From Candidatus Blautia intestinavium (GTDB taxonomy: Bacteria; Bacillota; Clostridia; Lachnospirales; Lachnospiraceae), in the NCBI GenBank assembly GCA_019113745.1, contig DXGV01000036.1:38152-102151 (forward strand): DNA of 64,000 nucleotides. Reading direction: 5' to 3'. Positions 189 through 35,822 of this stretch are shown here, piece by piece. The notes beneath the pieces were generated by a model. That model made no database searches, had not been told where the DNA came from, and saw nothing but the letters and a program-made list of their open reading frames with translations. The position numbers were made by a program, and so were the translations under genes. Each line of letters opens with the position of its first letter. Within the stretch, counting starts at the first letter, position 1.

Positions 189-1244
189 ATGGCTACAATG
201 ACAGATGTTGCAAAGGCGGCAAAGGTTTCAGTAATGACCGTGTCGCGGGTTTTGAATAATAGCGGCTATGTGAAAAAAGAAACAAGAGAGGCAATAGAAA
301 AGGCAATCGAAGAATTGGGGTATCGTCCGAATCTGGTGGCTAAAAGTCTGGTGACGGGAAGAAGCAGGCTGATTGCGTATGTTCTCTCTGATATTAGTGA
401 TCCTTTTTACGGAAGCGTCTGTAAGGGGGTAGAAAATGTTTGTTTTGCCAATGGATATACAGCTTTGATTTGTAATGCAAATACACCGAACAGCATTCAT
501 ACATATATAGACCGGATTATAGACCGGAAATTAGACGGAGTAATTTTTCATCACATGGCAGTGACAAAGGAACAAGTGCAGATACTGGAGGAAAATGGGA
601 TAAGATGTGTGACTGTAGATAATGAAATTCAGCTTGATAATATAAGCAGTGTAGACAGTGATGATTATATGGGAGCTGTAAAAGCTGTCCGTTTTCTGAA
701 AGAATGTGGATATGAAAATATAGGGTGTATTTGTGGAGAAGATAACCACTTAGATGATGCAAGGAAGTCTTACCTGGAAAAATATCAACATAAAATATGG
801 GAGGATCGTACTCGTGGATATATTAAGGGGATGAAAGACAATAAGATGATTCCAGCAGAAATATTCTATGGACGGGGATCGGCAGATATGCAGACAAGCG
901 CAGAAAGCGGAAAGAAAATCGCTTTGGAAATTATGAAAGCAGGAAAAAACATAGATGCATTGTACTGTCAGAGCGATATAATTGCCTCAGGTGTAGTAAA
1001 TGCTTTTTACCGGCAACATCTTCTGGATACGCCTATAGGAATAATAGGACATGATGGGTTGGATATGTGTTGTCTGTTTTATCCTCGTATTACAACTGTG
1101 GTACAGCCGAAGTATGAGATGGGAATGGAGGCGGCTGAACTGCTTCTAAAAAAAATTACAGATCCAGACAGTATGCCAGAACATAAAGTTATAGAGAGTC
1201 ATATATTTGTTGGTGATACAGCGTGTAAATGTAATAAAAATTAA
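189..1244 (+). CDS. LacI family transcriptional regulator
   Basis: N-terminal HTH MTDVAKAAKVSVMTVSRVLNNSGYVKKETREAI plus periplasmic-binding-like effector domain; RBS aggagag upstream. Confidence 0.95.
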   Translation: MATMTDVAKAAKVSVMTVSRVLNNSGYVKKETREAIEKAIEELGYRPNLVAKSLVTGRSRLIAYVLSDISDPFYGSVCKGVENVCFANGYTALICNANTPNSIHTYIDRIIDRKLDGVIFHHMAVTKEQVQILEENGIRCVTVDNEIQLDNISSVDSDDYMGAVKAVRFLKECGYENIGCICGEDNHLDDARKSYLEKYQHKIWEDRTRGYIKGMKDNKMIPAEIFYGRGSADMQTSAESGKKIALEIMKAGKNIDALYCQSDIIASGVVNAFYRQHLLDTPIGIIGHDGLDMCCLFYPRITTVVQPKYEMGMEAAELLLKKITDPDSMPEHKVIESHIFVGDTACKCNKN

Positions 1245-1320
1245 AAAAATTAAAGAGCGTCACTTTTGCGAATAAAATAGATTGACAAAAATAAAATAAT
1301 AGGATAATATTAAGATAAAG

Positions 1321-1336
1321 ATGTTAACGATAACAT
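1321..1336. promoter_or_regulatory. Candidate LacI-type operator A1 (ATGTTAACGATAACAT)
   Basis: Near-palindrome with central CG; 15/16 match to the perfect palindrome at 1410-1425. Confidence 0.65.
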
Positions 1337-1409
1337 AAAAGAAACTAAATAACATGTGAAGAAGTAAAAAAGAATGAGAGGTAAAACTCTCGTCTATTTT
1401 TACCATAAT

Positions 1410-1425
1410 ATGTTAACGTTAACAT
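1410..1425. promoter_or_regulatory. Candidate LacI-type operator A2 (ATGTTAACGTTAACAT)
   Basis: Perfect 16-bp palindrome with central CG upstream of the M24 gene. Confidence 0.75.
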
Positions 1426-1480
1426 CAAAGGCGCCTTTTATTGTGTTACTAATAAAAATAAGTTTAAAAAGGAGAATGGT

Positions 1481-2656
1481 ATGAAAGATATCGGTATTCC
1501 GAAATATGAATTTGAAGAGAGAATAAGGAAAATTAGAGAAAAAATGAACCAGAGAGCGCTGGACGCTGTATTTGTTTATGGAGATGAATACAGAAAGGAA
1601 AATCTAAGATATGTATCGAATTACTGGCCTATTTTTGAGCGGGGCGGAATGCTGTTGGGGCTGAATGGAGATCCAATTGTTTTGTGTGCTCCAGAAGGGG
1701 AAAAAGTAGCAAGGGAAATGAGTGCATGGGAAGATATCCGTCTGCTTCCGGATTTTCTTTGTGTAACAGTACCGGATGAAATTGAATATCCATATGCACA
1801 CTATACCAGTTTTAAAAAGCTGGCGAAGGAGCTTGGCAATGTAAATAGATTGGGAATTGCAGGTTTGGATGCCATGCCAAAAGGTCTGTTTGATATTATT
1901 TCGGAAGCTTTTTCCTGTGAGACGGAGGATATTAACGATATTCTGTATGAACTTCGACGGACAAAAAGCAACAATGAAATTGCCTGCCTAGAGGAAGCTG
2001 CCAGAATTGCAGACGAGAGTATGAAGGCTGTTATGGAAGCGGATCTGATTGGAAAGACAGAAAGGCAAGCCTGCGGCATTGCGGAGGGAACTGCCAGAAA
2101 GGAGGGGGCAGAGCATATCATATTCACTGTTTTTGGTTCAGGTGAAAGAACAAACACAATTGTTGGAAGGCCATCTGAAAAGATCATTGAGGACGGAGAC
2201 ATGATTATGCTGGCTTTAGCTGTTCAATATGAAGGATATGTCGCCACATGTGAAGCGCCATTTGCAGTAGGAAATATAAGTAAAGAGACAAGGCGTGTGC
2301 TTGATGTGCTTATAAAGGCAAGCGCTGCAGGAATCCCGTACTTAAAACCCGGGGTAAAAATGAAGACATTTGTGAAAGCGATCCGTCAGTATTTCAGAAA
2401 TGAAGGTTTGGAAGAATATGACGTATATCCACCTCTCCATGGTATCGGATGCGCGGAAGCAGAAAGCCCTTATCCGGATGAAAATACAGAGCAGGTTTTT
2501 GAAGTTGGGATGACAGTGAATACAGATATCAGTCTTTTTGGCTTGCCGGGAGGTTCCTGCAGAATCGAAGAAGGATTTGTTATTACAGAAAAAGGGGCAA
2601 GAACTTTGTCCCCATTTGTTAGAAAATATTGCGAAGAATGGATGAAAAATAAATAA
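1481..2656 (+). CDS. M24/creatinase-fold (pita-bread) hydrolase, non-canonical metal site
   Basis: N-terminal creatinase-like domain plus C-terminal pita-bread motifs (HGIGCAEAESPYPDE, CRIEEGFVITEKG). Confidence 0.85.
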   Translation: MKDIGIPKYEFEERIRKIREKMNQRALDAVFVYGDEYRKENLRYVSNYWPIFERGGMLLGLNGDPIVLCAPEGEKVAREMSAWEDIRLLPDFLCVTVPDEIEYPYAHYTSFKKLAKELGNVNRLGIAGLDAMPKGLFDIISEAFSCETEDINDILYELRRTKSNNEIACLEEAARIADESMKAVMEADLIGKTERQACGIAEGTARKEGAEHIIFTVFGSGERTNTIVGRPSEKIIEDGDMIMLALAVQYEGYVATCEAPFAVGNISKETRRVLDVLIKASAAGIPYLKPGVKMKTFVKAIRQYFRNEGLEEYDVYPPLHGIGCAEAESPYPDENTEQVFEVGMTVNTDISLFGLPGGSCRIEEGFVITEKGARTLSPFVRKYCEEWMKNK

Positions 2657-2690
2657 AAGATAAGATTTTTCAAGAAAAACCTTGAATTAT

Positions 2691-2702
2691 ATACTCGAGT
2701 AT
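2691..2702. promoter_or_regulatory. Candidate LacI-type operator B1 (ATACTCGAGTAT)
   Basis: Perfect palindrome; same motif at 2718-2729 (one mismatch) and 9322-9333. Confidence 0.75.
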
Positions 2703-2717
2703 AGTATAATCAGAAAT

Positions 2718-2729
2718 ATACTCGAGTAC
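2718..2729. promoter_or_regulatory. Candidate LacI-type operator B2 (ATACTCGAGTAC)
   Basis: One mismatch from the B1 palindrome, 27 bp downstream of it. Confidence 0.65.
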
Positions 2730-2832
2730 ATAATGAACGTATACATTTATAACGAAAGGAGGTACCAAAAGAAAAGACACAGGTAGAAAGATAACTGCAA
2801 ATTATAAAATGAACAGAAAGGAGAAGAGTAAC

Positions 2833-3861
2833 ATGAAAAAAAGAACAGTTACATGGATAATGGCATCTCTTATGGTACTGGCAGGTATGCCGGCTCAGAT
2901 AGTACTTGCTGAGGAATCAGAGCTCACGGATTTTACGATTGGGTATGCTGGCCTGGATGAATCGCAGGAACATCTTGTACCGGTGGGAGAAAATATCGAA
3001 AAAGTAGCGGCAGAAAAGAGCGAAGAGCTGGGAATCGATATTAAAGTGGTCAAGGTTGATAATGCCGGAGATGGAGCTAAGGCAGTTGAGAATGTAGACA
3101 ATTTAATTCTTCAGGGAATTGATGTACTGGTGGAATTTAATTCAGATGCTGCAGTGAATGATACAATATGGCAAAAGTGCCAGGATGCAGATATTCCTGT
3201 CATTGCTGTAGATATCCCGGTAGGAGACGCTCCATATATGGGCGCGAATAATGAGTTGGCAGGACAGCTTTGCGGTGAAGCGCTGGCAAACCTGGCAAAT
3301 GAGGAATGGGACGGACAGATTGATGCGATCCTTTTTGAACATACACCGGAAGCTGGAGAAACTGTACAGATCCGTATGGACAGCATCTGGGATGGATTGG
3401 CTGAAAATACAGATTATACACGAGAAGAACTGGAAGCAATGACAACGACAGTATCTATGGATGACGATGCTATCCTCGCACAGCAGTTATGTGCGGATTT
3501 CCTGACGGCAAATCCTGATAAAACTCACATTTTAATCGGATCTATCAATGATATAGGCGCGCAGGGAGCCTTTGCGGCAGTTCAGGCAGCAGGCCGGGAG
3601 GATGACGTATTTATCGTAAATCATGGCGTATCCGTTTCTACCAGAGAAAATCTTTATAATCAGGAAAACAGTGGTGAGACAAACTGTTGGAGAGGCGGAG
3701 TTTCTTATTTTCTTGAGCGATATGGCGAATATATCGTGCCTGGATGCATTGAACTTGTGCAGGGGAAAACACCTGACGCAGAAAGCCTTTTGATGGATCA
3801 TATCTATATTGATGTTAATAATATTGAAGAGTACTATCCGCAGAGCGAATGGGCACAGTAA
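2833..3861 (+). CDS. Sugar-type ABC transporter substrate-binding protein (RbsB-like)
   Basis: Signal peptide MKKRTVTWIMASLMVLAGMPAQIVLA; periplasmic binding protein fold; start set by AGGAG upstream of ATG 2833. Confidence 0.9.
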   Translation: MKKRTVTWIMASLMVLAGMPAQIVLAEESELTDFTIGYAGLDESQEHLVPVGENIEKVAAEKSEELGIDIKVVKVDNAGDGAKAVENVDNLILQGIDVLVEFNSDAAVNDTIWQKCQDADIPVIAVDIPVGDAPYMGANNELAGQLCGEALANLANEEWDGQIDAILFEHTPEAGETVQIRMDSIWDGLAENTDYTREELEAMTTTVSMDDDAILAQQLCADFLTANPDKTHILIGSINDIGAQGAFAAVQAAGREDDVFIVNHGVSVSTRENLYNQENSGETNCWRGGVSYFLERYGEYIVPGCIELVQGKTPDAESLLMDHIYIDVNNIEEYYPQSEWAQ

Positions 3862-3895
3862 TTTCTTTTCGTATAAAACATCAGTAAATTGATAA

Positions 3896-3943
3896 GCAAA
3901 GCGGACACTTAGATGAAGAAAAAGAGCAAGGTGTCTGCTTTGC
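3896..3943 (+). terminator. Intergenic hairpin after the SBP gene (partial terminator)
   Basis: GCAAAGCGGACAC...GTGTCTGCTTTGC inverted repeat followed by a T-containing tail. Confidence 0.6.
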
Positions 3944-3974
3944 TCATTTCTGAAAAAGAATTGGGGGAATTTAT

Positions 3975-5012
3975 ATGGCAGTAATGACTGTATTGGGAAA
4001 AAAAGAAGCATCTGAATTGGGGATTTGCGCACCTCATGAACATATTTTTATTGATATGAGCGTTTTTTTTACTCCGCCGGAAGAAATCGGTATGAAGAAT
4101 ATAGCGTATAATCCGGTTTCTATGGAATCTTTGGGAATCCTAAAGAGAAATCCATTTGCGGTTCTGGATAATGTACAGATGATGGATGAAGTCACGCAGA
4201 CAGAGGAAGTACTGGCATTTAAAAGTGCGGGAGGAAAGACAATTGTAGATGCATCTACAGTAGGGTTGGGCAGAGATCCAGAATTGCTTGCCCGTATATC
4301 AGCCCGTACTGGCCTTAATATTATTGCGGGAGCTGGTTTCTATGTAAAAGACGCCCAGAACTCAAGAACCTTAGAGATGAGTGTGGAAGAGATTGAAAAC
4401 CAGATTGTACGAGAGATAGAAGTGGAAATTGGGCATAGTGGAATTCGGGCAGGCTTTATAGGTGAGATAGGTGTCAGTCATGTAATGTATCCTTTTGAGA
4501 AGACATCGCTGACAGGTGCCTGCCGTGCCCAGGTAAGAACAGGAGCACCGTTGATGGTGCATATCAATCCCTGGTCCACGCAGGGTATCGAGGCAATGAA
4601 AATTATAAATGAGCATGGCGTCAGACCAGAAAAAACTGTGATTTGCCATAGTGATGTGGAAAATAGAGAGGACTATATTTTTAAGCTTCTGGATATGGGC
4701 GTTTATGTAGAATTCGATAATTGGGGAAAGGAAATGTTTACAGACCGATGGGATGTAAAACCGGGTTCAGGTAGGTTTGTCACAGATTGGGAAAGGGCTA
4801 TTCTGGTAAAGAAGATTGTTGACAGAGGATATGAAGACCAGATGCTTTTGTCTACAGATCTTTGTTTAAAATCGTTGCTTCATAAATATGGTGGATGGGG
4901 ATATGATCATATCCTGAAACATATTGTTCCCATGCTGGACGAAGTGGGAGTGACGAAAAAGCAGATAGATAAAATGTTGATCGAAAATCCAGCAAGATGG
5001 CTGGATGAATAA
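3975..5012 (+). CDS. Phosphotriesterase-family (amidohydrolase superfamily) metal-dependent hydrolase
   Basis: HEH motif, GEIGVS, VHINP, ICHSD and STDLC match the PTE-family metal-ligand pattern. Confidence 0.85.
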   Translation: MAVMTVLGKKEASELGICAPHEHIFIDMSVFFTPPEEIGMKNIAYNPVSMESLGILKRNPFAVLDNVQMMDEVTQTEEVLAFKSAGGKTIVDASTVGLGRDPELLARISARTGLNIIAGAGFYVKDAQNSRTLEMSVEEIENQIVREIEVEIGHSGIRAGFIGEIGVSHVMYPFEKTSLTGACRAQVRTGAPLMVHINPWSTQGIEAMKIINEHGVRPEKTVICHSDVENREDYIFKLLDMGVYVEFDNWGKEMFTDRWDVKPGSGRFVTDWERAILVKKIVDRGYEDQMLLSTDLCLKSLLHKYGGWGYDHILKHIVPMLDEVGVTKKQIDKMLIENPARWLDE

Positions 5013-5025
5013 AGGAGGCCGGACT

Positions 5026-6519
5026 ATGGATGAAGCAATCTTGAAAATGCAGGGGATTACGAAGCGCTTTCCTGGAGTACTGGCATTGGATCATGTTAAT
5101 ATTACCCTGAATAAAGGCGAAATACTTGCATTAGTAGGAGAAAACGGTGCAGGGAAATCTACTCTGCTAAAGATTTTGTCCGGGGCGTATACGAAAGATG
5201 AAGGTACGATAGAATATCAGGGACAGGTGTTGGGAGTTTATACTCCGAAAGAAGCCATTGATATGGGAATCAGTATTATTTACCAGGAACTGGACAATTA
5301 CGGAACACTTTCAGTTACAGAAAATATTCTGGTAAATGCGATGCCACGAAAAAAAGGAAGTCTCGGTCCTATTGACTGGAACGCTGCCAGAAAAAGGGCC
5401 AGAGATATCATTGGACAGATTACGGATGAAATAGACGTGGATGCGCCGGTATCATCATTGACGGCAGCACAGCAACAATTGGTAGAAATAGCGAAAGCAA
5501 TGAGCCGTAATATGAAAGTACTGATCATGGACGAGCCTACATCGGCTTTAAACAGAGTAGAAACGGAGCAGCTTATAAAAATTGTAAAAGATCTGGCTTC
5601 TCATGGAATCAGTATTATTTATATTTCTCATAGAATGGATGAAATTTTCTCTCTGTCAGACAGAATACAGGTAATGCGAGACGGAAAAAGTGTAGGATGC
5701 TTTCAGACAAAAGAAGTGGACGAAGAGACTATTGTTAAGGAAATGGTAGGACGGACGCTCGACAGCATGTATCCTCATGTTCCACAAAAACCAGGAGAAT
5801 GTATTTTAAAGGTAGAGCATCTTAGTTGCGGAAAGGCAAAAGACATCAGTTTTTCCCTTCACAGGGGAGAAATTCTGGGACTGTTCGGACTGATGGGAGC
5901 TGGGAGGACAAGTGTTGTCAGAGGAATATTTGGAGACGCTTACGTCAGAGAAGGGCATATTGAAATGAATGGTACTTTACTGAGAAATAACTCACCTCAG
6001 GATGCCATAAGACATAAAATTGCATATGTCCCGAATGAGAGAAAAGTAGAGGGACTTATGCTAAGCGAATCTGTATGTTCCAATATCAGTATTTCGGTTA
6101 TCGGCAGATTAATGAAACATTTCAAAATCGACAGCAGGGAAGAGAAAAAAATGTCCGATCAGTGGATTAAACGTCTGGGGATACGGACGCCTTCAGGCGA
6201 AACAAAAGTAGAAACGTTAAGCGGAGGTAATCAGCAGAAAGTGGTAATTGCCCGTTGGTTGGAGACTGCGCCGGATATTCTGATTTTAAATGATCCAACA
6301 AGAGGAATCGACGTAGGGGCAAAAGCAGAAATCTATAGTCTGATGGAAGATCTCTGCAAACAGGGGATGGGAATTATTATGATTTCTTCTGAGCTTCAAG
6401 AAACGCTGTCTATGTCAGACCGTATTTTAGTAATGAGTGAAGGAAGAATGGCAGGAGAGGTAACAAGAGAAGATGCCACACAGGAGAACCTGATGAAATT
6501 AGCAGTGGGAGGGATTTAG
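5026..6519 (+). CDS. Sugar ABC transporter ATP-binding protein, duplicated ATPase (RbsA/MglA type)
   Basis: GENGAGKST, LIMDEPTSAL, LSGGNQQKVVIARWL; RBS aaaggagg before ATG 5026. Confidence 0.95.
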   Translation: MDEAILKMQGITKRFPGVLALDHVNITLNKGEILALVGENGAGKSTLLKILSGAYTKDEGTIEYQGQVLGVYTPKEAIDMGISIIYQELDNYGTLSVTENILVNAMPRKKGSLGPIDWNAARKRARDIIGQITDEIDVDAPVSSLTAAQQQLVEIAKAMSRNMKVLIMDEPTSALNRVETEQLIKIVKDLASHGISIIYISHRMDEIFSLSDRIQVMRDGKSVGCFQTKEVDEETIVKEMVGRTLDSMYPHVPQKPGECILKVEHLSCGKAKDISFSLHRGEILGLFGLMGAGRTSVVRGIFGDAYVREGHIEMNGTLLRNNSPQDAIRHKIAYVPNERKVEGLMLSESVCSNISISVIGRLMKHFKIDSREEKKMSDQWIKRLGIRTPSGETKVETLSGGNQQKVVIARWLETAPDILILNDPTRGIDVGAKAEIYSLMEDLCKQGMGIIMISSELQETLSMSDRILVMSEGRMAGEVTREDATQENLMKLAVGGI

Positions 6520-6520
6520 A

Positions 6521-7486
6521 ATGGAGAAAAGTACGGTCAGACATAATATTTTTAAAAACGGAGGAAGCGAATTTACAATATTGATTGCATATATAGGTTT
6601 ATGTGCAGTGTTTTCAATTTTGTCTTCAAATTTTTTGTCGATAAAAAATTTTATAAACATCGGAATATATTCTTCGATTATGGGAATTACTGCAGCAGCT
6701 ACAACCTTGGTACTTATTAGTGGTTGCATTGATATTTCAGTGGGATCTGTGATGGGACTGACTGGAATGATCAGCGCTCTGATGTTGAAACAGGGAATAC
6801 CGATTGTAATAGTGGTGGTTACTTCTCTGCTGGCAGGAGCTGCTGTAGGAATTCTGAACGGCCTTCTTGTGGCAAAAGGAAAAATTGTACCTATGATAGC
6901 CACTATGGGTACCATGTCTATTGTCAGAGGCATTGCATATCTTACTAATGGCGGAATTTCTATTGTAATCAGTGATCAGAATTTTACATGGCTGGGACGG
7001 GGATATATCGGGCCTGTTCCGTTTATACTGCTTGTACTTCTGATGGTATATATAGGTGTTTATTATTTATCAAAGTATACAGCATACGGAAGAAAGCTGT
7101 ATGCTACCGGCTCTAATCAAAGAGCGGGATATCTTGCCGGAATCAATACAGACAGAACAATTTTAACAGTATATATTTTAAATGGAGTATTTGCAGGACT
7201 ATCTGGCATTTTGATGGCGGCACAGTCCGGTGCAGGACTTCCAACGGCGGGAGATACATACGAAATGACGATTATTTCGGCCTGTGTGCTGGGGGGAACA
7301 TCCATTAATGGAGGAAAAGGTAATGTCTGGGGCACTTTGATCGGCGTTCTGCTGTTGACTACGATCAGTAATGGACTGACTATGCTTGGAATCTCCAGTT
7401 TTTGGCAGCAGATCATTAAAGGTACGATACTGGTAGTGGCAGTTTTGATAGACGCATGGAGAAATGGAAGCTATAAAAAAGTATAA
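6521..7486 (+). CDS. Sugar ABC transporter permease (RbsC type)
   Basis: Hydrophobic helices, GLSGILMAAQSGAGLPTAGDTYEM, INGGKGNVWGTLIGVLLL; abuts the ATPase gene. Confidence 0.95.
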   Translation: MEKSTVRHNIFKNGGSEFTILIAYIGLCAVFSILSSNFLSIKNFINIGIYSSIMGITAAATTLVLISGCIDISVGSVMGLTGMISALMLKQGIPIVIVVVTSLLAGAAVGILNGLLVAKGKIVPMIATMGTMSIVRGIAYLTNGGISIVISDQNFTWLGRGYIGPVPFILLVLLMVYIGVYYLSKYTAYGRKLYATGSNQRAGYLAGINTDRTILTVYILNGVFAGLSGILMAAQSGAGLPTAGDTYEMTIISACVLGGTSINGGKGNVWGTLIGVLLLTTISNGLTMLGISSFWQQIIKGTILVVAVLIDAWRNGSYKKV

Positions 7487-7522
7487 CTTGATAAAAAAAT
7501 ACAATGCAAAGGAGTAAAAAAG

Positions 7523-7894
7523 ATGAATGGAAAAAAGTCCTGGTATATTGTTGATGGATACAGACCTCCTGAAAATAAAGGAGGAGCGGAAGATTATGTG
7601 GGACATGAATGTATTATGATCTTAAACTGTAATGACGAAGAGGCTCACGTAGAGATTGACGTATATTTTCCGGATCAGGAGCCGGTAAAAGGAATTCCCT
7701 ATCAGGTTCCCGCAAGACGAATCAGGGCTTTCCGCACAAACGACAGGAATGTATTTAAGGATCTTGAGTTGGATGTTGGAAGACAATATTCATTAAATAT
7801 AAGAAGTGATGTGGATGTTGTAGTACAATATGGACGACTGGATATCAATCAGGACAATATGGCCTATATGGCTACATTGGGATATTCTGATTAA
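7523..7894 (+). CDS. Anabaena sensory rhodopsin transducer (ASRT)-family small protein
   Basis: GKKSWYIVDGYRPPENKGGAEDYVGHECIMILN...VPARRIRAFRTND...SDVDVVVQYGRLDINQDNMAYMAT matches the ASRT-family pattern as I recall it. Confidence 0.8.
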   Translation: MNGKKSWYIVDGYRPPENKGGAEDYVGHECIMILNCNDEEAHVEIDVYFPDQEPVKGIPYQVPARRIRAFRTNDRNVFKDLELDVGRQYSLNIRSDVDVVVQYGRLDINQDNMAYMATLGYSD

Positions 7895-7902
7895 AACTTA
7901 AA

Positions 7903-7955
7903 AAGGGATAAAATCTGCGGCCATTTGTTTTGGCGGACAGGAGATTTTATCCCTT
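7903..7955 (+). terminator. Intrinsic terminator after the ASRT gene
   Basis: AAGGGATAAAATCT...AGATTTTATCCCTT perfect stem. Confidence 0.75.
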
Positions 7956-8132
7956 CTTGATATTAGAAGAGCATATATCACAGGAGAAGGTACTGTGTGA
8001 TGTCATGCAAATAGAATATTTTTCCAAAAAAATTAGACTCGTATAGTTTATTTATGTTACTATATAAAAAGTACATGATCTTAGACACAGAACTTAAGCA
8101 AAGATGAAAAAGTAAAGTACGGGGGATTCTAT

Positions 8133-9089
8133 ATGGTTTCTATGAAAGATATCGCCAGGGAGTTAAATTTATCCCGGTGTACGGTTTCCAATATTCTGAA
8201 TAATAAGCTGGATCGTTACAGCTATCGTCAGGAAACCATTGATATGGTGAGAGCGAAAGCAGAAGAGATGGGATATGTGGTAAATAATCTTGCACAGTCC
8301 CTGAAAACAGGCTTTGCTAATATGATTGCTTTAGTTATTCCAGATATATCCAGTACATTTTATATAAAAATAATAAAAGAAATAGAGAGGCTGACATTTG
8401 AAAATAACTATGGTCTGCTTGTATGTGTGACGGAAGAAAGTTTGGATAAAGAGCGGAGAATGTTAGAGACTTTGAAAAAACGCCGTGTGGACGGAGTGAT
8501 TATAGCAGGCGTCTCTTATACGGAATCTGTGATTGACGAAAGTGCATATAAGGTTGTTATGTTTGACCGTATTATAAAAGATGTACAGGTTCCCACAGTG
8601 ACAGTGGATGACAGGAAGGCATCTTATGATCTTACCCGCCGTATTCTGGACAAAGGATACAGGCATCCGTTATTTATTGCTACATCATCTTGGGATTACA
8701 CTGTACAATGCCGTTTAAGGGGATTTCAGGATGCACTGCAGGAGTATGGTCTGACCTTTCGGCAGTCAGATGTTTTTTATAACTGCTTTAATGAATTTGA
8801 TTCTTATGAGCTGATAACAAAATTACAAAAAGAAGAAAGTGACAGATTTGATTCTATTGTCTCTACTACCAATGAAATTGTATTTGGAATTATGAAAGCT
8901 CTGGGAGATTCTTTTTCAGAGATTGGATATGGTGGATTCTATTCCTTTAATGGCTCTTCCTTCATGGGAGAGAAAATCTTAAACGTAATTCCTCCTCCGG
9001 ATATGGCAGAAAAAGCGTTTACGATTTTAATGGACCGGATTAAAGGAGAAACTGGTTATAATGCAGTTTTAGATGTAAAAATAGTATAA
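8133..9089 (+). CDS. LacI family transcriptional regulator (second)
   Basis: MVSMKDIARELNLSRCTVSNILNNKLDRYSYRQETI HTH; LacI effector domain. Confidence 0.93.
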   Translation: MVSMKDIARELNLSRCTVSNILNNKLDRYSYRQETIDMVRAKAEEMGYVVNNLAQSLKTGFANMIALVIPDISSTFYIKIIKEIERLTFENNYGLLVCVTEESLDKERRMLETLKKRRVDGVIIAGVSYTESVIDESAYKVVMFDRIIKDVQVPTVTVDDRKASYDLTRRILDKGYRHPLFIATSSWDYTVQCRLRGFQDALQEYGLTFRQSDVFYNCFNEFDSYELITKLQKEESDRFDSIVSTTNEIVFGIMKALGDSFSEIGYGGFYSFNGSSFMGEKILNVIPPPDMAEKAFTILMDRIKGETGYNAVLDVKIV

Positions 9090-9170
9090 TGGAGAGGGAA
9101 GCTTTATAAAGATAATTTTGAAATAAAACAGTATTTAGATCGATGCGTGGATATATACATATATGAAAAA

Positions 9171-9262
9171 ACGGCAGATCGGTGATTATTTTACAGAGTA
9201 CCAGTAGTTTAAGCTGTTGGCAGTTAATTCTGTAAAAGATAACTCCGTTCTGCCGTATATTT
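9171..9262 (+). terminator. Long nested hairpin with T-rich tail
   Basis: Outer ACGGCAGA/TCTGCCGT, inner TTTTACAGA/TCTGTAAAA, followed by atatttttt. Confidence 0.65.
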
Positions 9263-9321
9263 TTTAGTGAAAATTTTAGGGAATACTATTGAAACTTTGC
9301 CAAAACTATATTACAATTAAT

Positions 9322-9333
9322 ATACTCGAGTAT
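9322..9333. promoter_or_regulatory. Candidate LacI-type operator B3 (ATACTCGAGTAT)
   Basis: Identical to the 2691-2702 palindrome; 53 bp upstream of the second M24 gene. Confidence 0.75.
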
Positions 9334-9385
9334 ATTATGAAAAATGGAACGCTGAAAGATGAAAATGTATTGCAGGAGGTAGAAA

Positions 9386-10564
9386 ATGAAACCTAAAATT
9401 GAACGTGCTGAGTTTTTAGATAGAATCAGAAAAACTCAGGAATTAATGAAACAGCAAGGAATAGATCTTCTTTTTGCTTATGGAAATGAAGCAGAGCCTC
9501 AGTTTATACGTTATTATAGCAATTACTGGCCAAATTTTGAACTGGCAGGTGTGCTGATTCCGGCAGAGGGGGAGGCTACTCTGATCATAGGGCCGGAAAG
9601 TGAAACTTTTGCATCATCCGTATCGCAGATTGAAAGAATACGCCGGGTTCTTGTTTTTCGAGAGTCTTCTGAACCGGAATACCCGGGCGCTGTATTATGG
9701 ACACTTACTGAGGTGATGAAAGAAGCTGTTGGAAGCATCAATGTTCATAGAATTGGTATTGTGGGGGGCTGCCTGATTTCTCACGTGGTCTATATGGCTT
9801 TGGAGGAAGCGCGGATACAGTTGGGTTCTCCGGAGTTTGTAAAAGCAGATACGCTAGTATCCAAGCTTCGGGCAGTGAAATCGCCAGCGGAAATCGCATG
9901 TATGAGAGAAGCATACAGAATTACACAATGCGCTATGAAAAAAGTGCTGGATACTATTCAGGTTGGAATGACAGAGGAACAGACCCGTGGCATTGCAGTG
10001 AGTACTATGTATAGTGAAGGCGCAGAAGGAGAGGCATATCCATGTTGGATTCTTGCCGGAGAGGGATCTAATCTTGCTATAGGACGCTGCCGGGGAAGAG
10101 AAATACATAACGGGGATCTGGTACAAATTCAGATAGGTGCAAGATATCAGGGATATGCTTCTACCATGGGACGCGCAGTAGTTATGGGAAAAGCGTCAGA
10201 TGTGCAGAAAAAACTGATAGAGGCAAGTCTGGCCGGACAGAAAGCCATTTTAGAAACAGCACGGGCCGGAATTTCCGCAAAAGCAGTTAGTGATGCTCAT
10301 TATCAGGCAATTCAAGCGCTGGGACAGGAAAAAAATATATTGTATGGCCCCTGTCATGGAACAGGACTGATGGAAGGGGAATACCCGTGGATCGAGTCTG
10401 ATTCAGATTTTCTCCTGGAAGAAGGAATGACATTCTGCAGTTGCGTTTATCTGGGTGATAATGAACACAAAATGGGAGTCCGGTTTGAGGATGGTTTTAT
10501 TGTAACAAAAACAGGAACGGAATCCTTTTCCGATTATCGAAGAGAACTTATTGAGATTGCCTAG
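9386..10564 (+). CDS. M24/creatinase-fold hydrolase, non-canonical metal site (second copy)
   Basis: Same domain organisation as 1481-2656 (FIRYYSNYWPNFELAGV; HGTGLMEGEYPW; VRFEDGFIVT). Confidence 0.85.
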   Translation: MKPKIERAEFLDRIRKTQELMKQQGIDLLFAYGNEAEPQFIRYYSNYWPNFELAGVLIPAEGEATLIIGPESETFASSVSQIERIRRVLVFRESSEPEYPGAVLWTLTEVMKEAVGSINVHRIGIVGGCLISHVVYMALEEARIQLGSPEFVKADTLVSKLRAVKSPAEIACMREAYRITQCAMKKVLDTIQVGMTEEQTRGIAVSTMYSEGAEGEAYPCWILAGEGSNLAIGRCRGREIHNGDLVQIQIGARYQGYASTMGRAVVMGKASDVQKKLIEASLAGQKAILETARAGISAKAVSDAHYQAIQALGQEKNILYGPCHGTGLMEGEYPWIESDSDFLLEEGMTFCSCVYLGDNEHKMGVRFEDGFIVTKTGTESFSDYRRELIEIA

Positions 10565-34073: not shown

Positions 34074-35822
34074 ATGGAGCTTAATAGTAAAGAAAATATA
34101 CAGCAGAACAGTCCGCGTACGTTTACTGCCAATCTGTTTATCGCCCAGCTTCAAAAAAGAGTATATAAAAGAATATTTATCCAGATAGGACTGGGTATCA
34201 TACTTTTTTTGGTGGGATTTCTTTTTGTTACTGATTTCACAAATGAGATTAACGCAGAGCAGAATCTGTCCATGCTCAAAGAGACTTATCTGGAGCTTTA
34301 TAATAATAACTGTGACTTTTTAAACTCAGAGCAGACGCTTCAGGATGCAGTGAACGCACTGTCAGAGGGAAACGTAAATAATTTTGAACGGAGATTTAAC
34401 CGGTTTAATCTGAAGAACCCGGTTAATAACGAGGTGATACTTGCGGACGCGGATTACAATGCAGTCTATTCAAGTTTTTCTCAGGAGGAACTGTCGGATT
34501 ATCTGCTGGGCTATAATGGAGCTGTCTGCAATAATGCCAGGAATACAGACACTGATAATGTATACACAGCGGTATATTTTTCTACAGGTTCATATTCTGA
34601 TTATCTCTTTGTAAAGCCGCTTCTTTCAGGAGATGAAATCGTCGGATATATCAGTCTTTTTCTGATAGGTACAGACTGGGATTATTATCTTTCCGACGAG
34701 AATTTTGAAGGCGTTATTATTGATGAGAGAGATAATGTAATATACAGGAGCAAAGCCGGTTTTGCAAATCAGTCGGGGAAATTTTATCCGCAGAAGAAAA
34801 GGATAGCGGTATATAATAACGAACGTTACTGGACAAAAACTGAACGTCTGGACGGTTATGACGCGACAATATATTCCATGGTGTATTATCCGGAAAATCA
34901 TATAGCAGTAGTGGGACTTGGAGTTATTCTGATATTGGGGATTTCCTGGTTTTTTATCGCCCGCTGGATGAGTCGGACAATGGCGGAGTATAATGCCGGA
35001 CAACTCAGCACATTGGTAAAGGAAATCCGCATGATCCAGGACGGAGCCCATGATCACCGGATTCATATGAATACGAATGATGAATTTGACGAAGTTGCGC
35101 ACAGAATAAACAGGATGCTGGACAGTGTGAGAGCGCTGAATAACAGAAATATGGAGCTTGTAATGCTGAATACTGCTTTGGAGACGGGGCAGCTGGAGGC
35201 TCAGATGAATCCACATTTTCTGTATAATACACTGGAAATAATAAGAAATCTTGTGATCATGGATCCTGATATTGCAGGAGAACTGATCGAAAAACTCGTG
35301 TATATATTAAGATACAGCGTGAACAGTTCATACCGGGAAGTACGTCTGCGCGAGGATATGGATTATATTAACGCTTATCTGTACATTCAGAAGCTGAGAT
35401 TTGGCGACAGATTCCAGTGTGAGATCGATCTTCCGGAATCCTGTATGGAGTGTGTCGTGCCGAAGCTTCTGTTTCAGCCTCTGATTGAAAACAGTATCAA
35501 ATATGGATACCAGGATCAGATGAAACTACGTGTTGATATTACATCCGAGCTGAAGTCAGGAATACTGCTGATTTCTGTGTGTGATAATGGTCCCGGAGTA
35601 TCTGAAGAAAAATTAAAAGAATTATCGGAATCACTGAATATAGTGGATTATCATGAAAAGTCGCTGGGACTTCATAATATTTCCAGAAGACTGAGGCTTC
35701 TTTATGGGGAGAAAAGCGGCGTTACGGTAAAAAACAGATTGGAGGGCGGATTTGAGGTAATACTGGCGATCGATCAGAACTTTATTGACAACAGCGGGAC
35801 AGGAGGGACTACAGATGTATAA
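34074..35822 (+). CDS. Sensor histidine kinase (YesM/LytS-type)
   Basis: Two TMs, HAMP-like segment, QMNPHFLYNTLEIIRNL, CDNGPGVSEEKL. Confidence 0.92.
   Translation: MELNSKENIQQNSPRTFTANLFIAQLQKRVYKRIFIQIGLGIILFLVGFLFVTDFTNEINAEQNLSMLKETYLELYNNNCDFLNSEQTLQDAVNALSEGNVNNFERRFNRFNLKNPVNNEVILADADYNAVYSSFSQEELSDYLLGYNGAVCNNARNTDTDNVYTAVYFSTGSYSDYLFVKPLLSGDEIVGYISLFLIGTDWDYYLSDENFEGVIIDERDNVIYRSKAGFANQSGKFYPQKKRIAVYNNERYWTKTERLDGYDATIYSMVYYPENHIAVVGLGVILILGISWFFIARWMSRTMAEYNAGQLSTLVKEIRMIQDGAHDHRIHMNTNDEFDEVAHRINRMLDSVRALNNRNMELVMLNTALETGQLEAQMNPHFLYNTLEIIRNLVIMDPDIAGELIEKLVYILRYSVNSSYREVRLREDMDYINAYLYIQKLRFGDRFQCEIDLPESCMECVVPKLLFQPLIENSIKYGYQDQMKLRVDITSELKSGILLISVCDNGPGVSEEKLKELSESLNIVDYHEKSLGLHNISRRLRLLYGEKSGVTVKNRLEGGFEVILAIDQNFIDNSGTGGTTDV

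Follow-up and report, generated by a model that had tools for sequence, protein, structure and literature searches.

Within a 64,000-nucleotide window of Candidatus Blautia intestinavium (assembly GCA_019113745.1, contig DXGV01000036.1, positions 38,152 to 102,151), by which we mean the whole stretch of DNA analyzed, the + strand between positions 189 and 10564 holds nine genes: lacI1, M24a, SBP (substrate-binding protein), PTE (phosphotriesterase-family hydrolase), an ATP-binding cassette (ABC) ATPase, a permease, ASRT, lacI2 and M24b. With moderate confidence, we read these genes as an import-and-hydrolysis catabolic set, probably acquired, that serves one small, probably sugar-like molecule containing an amide, ester or lactone bond. 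More tentatively, PTE and a metal-free M24 protein may form the core of an undescribed catabolic pathway in gut and rumen Clostridia, in which M24 would act on a sugar derivative by a novel hydrolytic or lyase reaction and ASRT would be a ligand-binding accessory. The open reading frame (ORF) list and a Pfam scan confirmed the nine genes, families, order and strand given in a preliminary description of this DNA, which had been made from its letters. In the features below, op1 and op2 are two classes of predicted LacI operator, L numbers denote loci, and E is the expect value.

189–1244, + strand: lacI1, LacI-family repressor predicted to act on op1 (Pfam LacI, E 1.4e-22)
1321–1336, no strand: op1 copy, ATGTTAACGATAACAT (palindrome search; paired sites conserved in L013-L016)
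1410–1425, no strand: op1 copy, perfect palindrome ATGTTAACGTTAACAT with central CG (palindrome search)
1481–2656, + strand: M24a, metal-poor pita-bread protein (Pfam Creatinase_N and Peptidase_M24)
2689–2704, no strand: op2 copy, ATATACTCGAGTATAG (palindrome search)
2716–2731, no strand: op2 copy, ATATACTCGAGTACAT, 27 nt after the first (26–27 nt spacing also in L013 and L014)
2833–3861 (longest ORF from 2809), + strand: SBP, ribose-type substrate-binding protein (Peripla_BP_4, E 6.7e-28)
3975–5012, + strand: PTE-family hydrolase with bridging Glu (PTE, E 1.9e-67)
5005–6519, + strand: RbsA-type double ATPase of the importer (Pfam ABC ATPase)
6521–7486, + strand: RbsC-type permease (BPD_transp_2, E 8.7e-38)
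7523–7894, + strand: ASRT-family protein (ASRT, E 1.4e-35; PDB 2ii7, E 2.7e-23)
7903–7957, + strand: terminator-like hairpin with a 14-bp stem, 3' of ASRT (fold of 7893–7965: -25.6 kcal/mol, z -4.95)
8133–9089, + strand: lacI2, LacI-family repressor predicted to act on op2 (Pfam LacI)
9320–9335, no strand: op2, perfect palindrome ATATACTCGAGTATAT, 5' of M24b (palindrome search)
9386–10564, + strand: M24b, metal-poor pita-bread protein (Pfam M24 and Creatinase_N; AlphaFold2 predicted local distance difference test score 91.6)

The hairpin 3' of ASRT suggests that the operon comprises SBP, PTE, the two ABC genes and ASRT. The op1 palindrome (ATGTTAACGTTAACAT) precedes M24a, while op2 (ATATACTCGAGTATAT) precedes this operon twice and M24b once; both are even palindromes with a central CG, the usual form of a LacI-family operator (PMC4052901). 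None of 100 shuffled windows reached the observed operator counts (two sites for op1, three for op2). At one mismatch or fewer, op2 occurred at only three sites in the whole assembly (2.73 Mb in 60 contigs, approximately 83% complete), all within the cluster; because it stands before the operon and M24b and nowhere else at this threshold, these genes constitute one predicted regulon. Near-matches to op1 at C17:2018 and C52:3203, which fall within an aspartokinase gene and next to mnmA, were taken as chance, as was an op2 match with three mismatches at window position 35290, within a sensor-kinase gene.

The arrangement of operators recurs in Diplocloster agilis and D. modestus (Lachnospiraceae), which have the closest relatives of the cluster among named species. 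In both species op2 pairs spaced by 26–27 nt precede SBP and M24b, and op1-type sites precede M24a. Loci L015 and L016, where both M24 genes lie 3' of the importer genes, lack both lacI2 and op2 and carry only op1-type sites. Since relatives of lacI1 in L013-L016 co-occur with op1-type sites, and op2 is restricted, among the loci compared, to those having lacI2, we infer that op2 is the LacI2 site and op1 the LacI1 site. In this genome M24b is tied to the SBP-PTE-ABC-ASRT operon solely by the predicted operators of lacI2. The genes, previously described as one cluster, would fall under two LacI regulons.

Elsewhere in the genome, contig C11 carries a paralogous locus that provides an independent link between a regulator of LacI2 type, its putative operator type, a ribose-type importer and a protein of M24b type. 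Here, a LacI2 paralog (45% identical) is divergent from an RbsA-RbsC-RbsB set, and the intergenic region bears ACTCGTGT-centered sites related to op2. The importer genes are followed by an ORF of 557 amino acids (aa) (L174:9413-11086, G000:C11) consisting of an M20-type deacylase part, so named from its sequence rather than from a profile result, and a C-terminal M24b-like half that is metal-poor and 59% identical to M24b. The two parts may have been joined by a deletion, or the join may be an error of assembly. EtfAB- and GlcD-like genes follow the locus.

Conservation of the neighborhood was assessed across Clostridia. Scanning genomes with PTE as the sole query protein yielded 28 loci, to which a class-wide search with a PTE alignment added more, giving 49 distinct loci after removal of duplicates; neighbors were counted within 6 kb of PTE on the same strand. 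An M24 gene was found near PTE in 29 of the 49 loci, ASRT in 20, and both in 18. At roughly five M24 genes per genome, approximately 0.5 of 49 loci (about 1%) would be expected to pair by chance and, although the loci are related by descent, so that an exact probability is not meaningful, the grouping of PTE with M24 is far beyond chance. The pairing occurs in at least seven GTDB families besides that of Diplocloster, i.e., in at least eight families of Clostridia. The survey had been proposed in the preliminary description, for which an arrangement not shared across genomes would have counted against a dedicated pathway; the arrangement proved to be conserved.

The composition of these loci varies. 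Five of them (L013-L017) contain nearly the whole gene set, with SBPs that are 59–80% identical, and in L018-L020 the importer has two permeases, the binding protein of L020 being of LsrB/RhaS type. In L019, a broken-looking M24 gene (4639-5268, in several frames) lies 5' of the importer genes, with FrlB/FrlD-like genes on the other strand. Among diverged rumen and caecum loci, the importer is replaced by AraC regulators, glycosidases and triosephosphate isomerase (TIM)-barrel proteins, and GH88, rhamnosidase-type, GH3 and AP_endonuc_2 proteins are encoded near diverged PTE genes. A conserved 260-aa partner, C4 (L022:9215-9994 and relatives), stands beside the PTE/M24/ASRT genes in 14 loci; it has no Pfam match, and its AlphaFold2 model is TIM-barrel-like without a clear family, hence giving no clue to the substrate. 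A second partner, c52, which may resemble a sugar isomerase, matched nothing in Pfam or the PDB. In L160, L161, L162 and L167, PTE is followed not by M24 but by two Amidohydro_2-type proteins, and L161 and L167 additionally encode a 490-aa protein without a Pfam match.

The transport genes have the composition of an RbsABC-type sugar importer (double ATPase, BPD_transp_2 permease and Peripla_BP_4 SBP by Pfam), with every NCBIfam equivalog score below cut-off. The probable start of the SBP is 2833, the position previously described, rather than 2809. It has no Cys where five relatives carry a lipobox-like Cys (window 2833-2930; alignment A3) and is missing a linker of approximately 30 residues; the SBP of this strain may no longer be anchored to the membrane. 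Uptake of L-rhamnose and autoinducer-2 offers a likeness in the LsrB/RhaS-type binding protein of L020 and in the location of ASRT by RhaA in other Firmicutes; the cluster differs in having no rhamnose isomerase, kinase, aldolase or Lsr kinase.

The ASRT protein scored 122.3 bits against its family profile (PF07100; cut-off 25) and carries the HExxC..N motif, with the H/C/N pocket residues in GHECIMILN. De Souza et al. (2009; PMC2739507) proposed that such proteins (also ASRAH) are sugar sensors or sugar-binding. Elsewhere in the phylum ASRT adjoins L-rhamnose isomerase (RhaA), class II aldolase, beta-galactosidase and GH88 genes, which agrees with that proposal. Like the systems set out in that study, the cluster pairs a stand-alone ASRT protein with a monosaccharide ABC importer and conserves the H and C of the pocket motif; unlike them, it has PTE and M24, the main text containing no mention of phosphotriesterase, peptidase, amidohydrolase or creatinase. 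On a conjugative plasmid of Klebsiella pneumoniae (NZ_CP132652.1, L061), an ASRT gene adjoins genes for a sugar porter, a short-chain dehydrogenase/reductase, a GntR regulator and a mandelate racemase-type enzyme.

Both M24 proteins were confirmed to be metal-poor members of the pita-bread fold, as the preliminary description had claimed. The fold, with its Creatinase_N domain, was recognized by Pfam and by AlphaFold2 with Foldseek: the M24b model matched prolidases with query template-modeling scores of 0.73–0.83, and creatinase and DoeA (ectoine hydrolase) somewhat lower. The top sequence matches of both proteins are likewise Xaa-Pro peptidases. Conversely, at the prolidase ligand columns D209/D220/H284/E313/E327 (numbering of Pyrococcus prolidase, 1PV9), M24a has A/T/H/D/E and M24b has Q/T/H/C/E, and the column of the active-site His192 holds V in M24a and I in M24b; the equivalents of D209, D220, H192 and E313 that distinguish prolidase and Xaa-Pro aminopeptidase are absent. 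Of the five ligands (D, D, H, E, E) required of M24 metallopeptidases, M24a, M24b and their relatives retain only the H and the last E. In all 38 members of the metal-poor family in a wider survey, H284 and E327 alone were retained, with E313 replaced by D or C; every ligand was intact in two canonical controls, a prolidase near one PTE locus (L158_3277) and a protein of the same genome (L001). Because D209 and D220 are lost throughout the family, a prolidase-type two-metal centre is not expected, and the active site of both proteins is predicted to be metal-free.

Descent of the metal-poor proteins from one single clade was not well supported: their common ancestor has a support of 0.39 and also takes in two more metal-poor M24 proteins, which belong to a different family. 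Taken separately, the M24a, M24b and rumen groups all had good support. A metal-poor M24 protein of a different family (L180:9122-10312, G458) is encoded 3' of genes that read, by their sequence, as a sugar-type SBP and BNR/sialidase-like proteins. On a Priestia megaterium plasmid, an M24 gene with a partly degenerate metal site (L088:8001-9173) adjoins LacI and ribose-type ABC importer genes, in a region that also contains an inositol gene.

The loss of both Asp ligands and His192 across the family raises the alternative that the M24 proteins are ligand-binding or regulatory rather than enzymatic, with the chemistry performed by PTE alone; Spt16, a non-peptidase protein of M24 fold, is among the profile matches. 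We consider this alternative unlikely, as the family retains nearly invariant polar positions (Y43, E52, Y257, H324, E330, E332, R366 and E368): H324, E332, R366, E368 and Y43 are present in 39/39 sequences and E330 and E52 in 38/39, the last two being absent from the prolidases compared. Further, two paralogs are kept in one gene set.

Creatinase and ectoine hydrolase, both of M24 fold, carry out their reactions without a binuclear metal centre. M24a and M24b resemble these enzymes in fold, in length (approximately 390–400 aa) and in the loss of the binuclear ligands, but they share only 16–21% identity with them in structural alignment, occur in another genomic context and have lost the equivalent of prolidase His192. 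The column of this residue is, we take it, that of the creatinase catalytic His232, in which case the V of M24a and the I of M24b replace the catalytic His. M24b scored 77.9 bits against the DoeA family (NCBIfam TIGR02993; cut-off 613). Because both proteins lack this His, the earlier suggestion of an amidine or guanidino (creatinase-like) substrate gained no specific support. Neither creatine nor ectoine is supported as a substrate.

The PTE protein has a complete binuclear metal site (H21, H23, E164, H196, H225 and D295), invariant in 22 aligned sequences and conforming to the pattern of the Phosphotriesterase family (PF02126; HxH, bridging residue, H, H, D), with Glu164 as the bridging residue. 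Among solved structures it is closest to 3k2g and the PTER-type 9efa, and it resembles PTER in its bridging-Glu subgroup as well as its metal site. Mammalian PTER is an N-acetyltaurine hydrolase, i.e., an amide hydrolase, for which R204, R233 and H300 have been proposed to lie at the substrate (PMC11374699). The PTE protein differs in having P199, V228 and C297 at these columns, which were located from motifs in the alignment with 9efa; because the substrate residues are replaced, N-acetyltaurine is unlikely as its substrate. Its score of 78.2 bits against the phospho-furanose lactonase family (NF045706) is below the cut-off of 630, and no substrate is named in the annotation of plasmid-borne relatives of PTE and M24 in Rhizobium and Priestia.

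A pathway of ectoine-like logic, in which a metal-free M24 protein opens a cyclic amidine or amide and PTE, or M20 in other loci, removes an acyl group, would accommodate several of these observations. Among the M24 enzymes matched by fold or profile, those free of metal are creatinase and DoeA; the nearest PDB relatives of PTE include the protein of the amide-hydrolyzing PTER type; an M20 part is fused to the M24b-like half on contig C11, and in L027 and L029 PTE has an M20 gene next to it. Further, in ectoine degradation, DoeA is followed by the deacylase DoeB (PMC3187862). The substrate residues of PTER are not retained, however, the identity to DoeA and creatinase is low with His192 lost, and the transporter, ASRT and neighbors suggest sugars over a compatible solute. 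Ring opening followed by deacylation is therefore possible, without specific support, and we judge it somewhat more doubtful than a non-catalytic role for M24. Ordinary peptide scavenging by M24 dipeptidases beside an unrelated sugar importer, to which the Xaa-Pro peptidase matches might point, is highly improbable given the missing metal ligands, the operators common to M24b and the ribose-type importer operon, and the recurrence of the PTE-M24 neighborhood across families.

We return to import and hydrolysis of a sugar-like molecule, for which the operators, the neighborhood, the metal ligands and the family memberships are read from sequence, and the chemistry and substrate are what we infer. 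From the protein families, the SBP and RbsAC-type importer would take up the molecule; PTE, with its complete metal site, would hydrolyze one bond; and M24b, probably with M24a, would act, with no binuclear metal centre, on the substrate or the product. ASRT would bind a sugar-like ligand as an accessory, following the family proposal of De Souza et al. (PMC2739507). From the operators, LacI2 would repress the SBP-PTE-ABC-ASRT operon and M24b together, and LacI1 would repress M24a. The transporter type, ASRT, and the glycosidases and sugar genes near relatives favor, indirectly, a sugar-like substrate.

Several points weigh against this reading. The loss of the lipobox Cys suggests that uptake may be weakened in this strain. 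No M24 gene was seen near PTE in 20 of the 49 loci, suggesting that the PTE reaction does not always depend on M24, and the M24 proteins could be non-catalytic. The SBP type varies among relatives (A3-type versus LsrB-type), such that the substrate may differ between loci. No close known enzyme fixes the reaction of PTE, M24a or M24b. Finally, as the cluster has no kinase, isomerase or aldolase, the products must enter common metabolism. The dedicated pathway of the preliminary description stands, in part, as a putatively co-regulated import-and-hydrolysis set in a conserved neighborhood.

Acquisition of the gene set is suggested by its composition and distribution. The guanine-plus-cytosine (GC) content of the cluster is 0.40, compared with 0.47 in equal-sized stretches of the remaining window (about three standard deviations low), and neither ASRT nor strong M24 matches were found in two genomes of the same genus. 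We read this combination of low GC and patchy distribution as evidence that the set was probably acquired horizontally. The gene after M24b encodes diaminopimelate epimerase, which is functionally unrelated to the cluster.

No described pathway matching this gene set, and no description of the set itself, was found in the literature searched, which covered few subscription-journal papers or preprints; this agrees with the novelty suggested previously. Each component belongs to a known family, and it is the chemistry that may be new. A conserved enzyme pair of gut bacteria, wired by two readable LacI operators, presents a concrete and testable assignment problem. If our reading is true, (i) the short list of metal-free M24 enzymes would be extended, (ii) the poorly understood ASRT proteins would gain a defined set of partners, and (iii) the label “Xaa-Pro peptidase”, given to these M24 proteins by homology, would be corrected. 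The PTE-M24 pairing, recurrent in many gut bacteria, points to a pathway for the breakdown of food.

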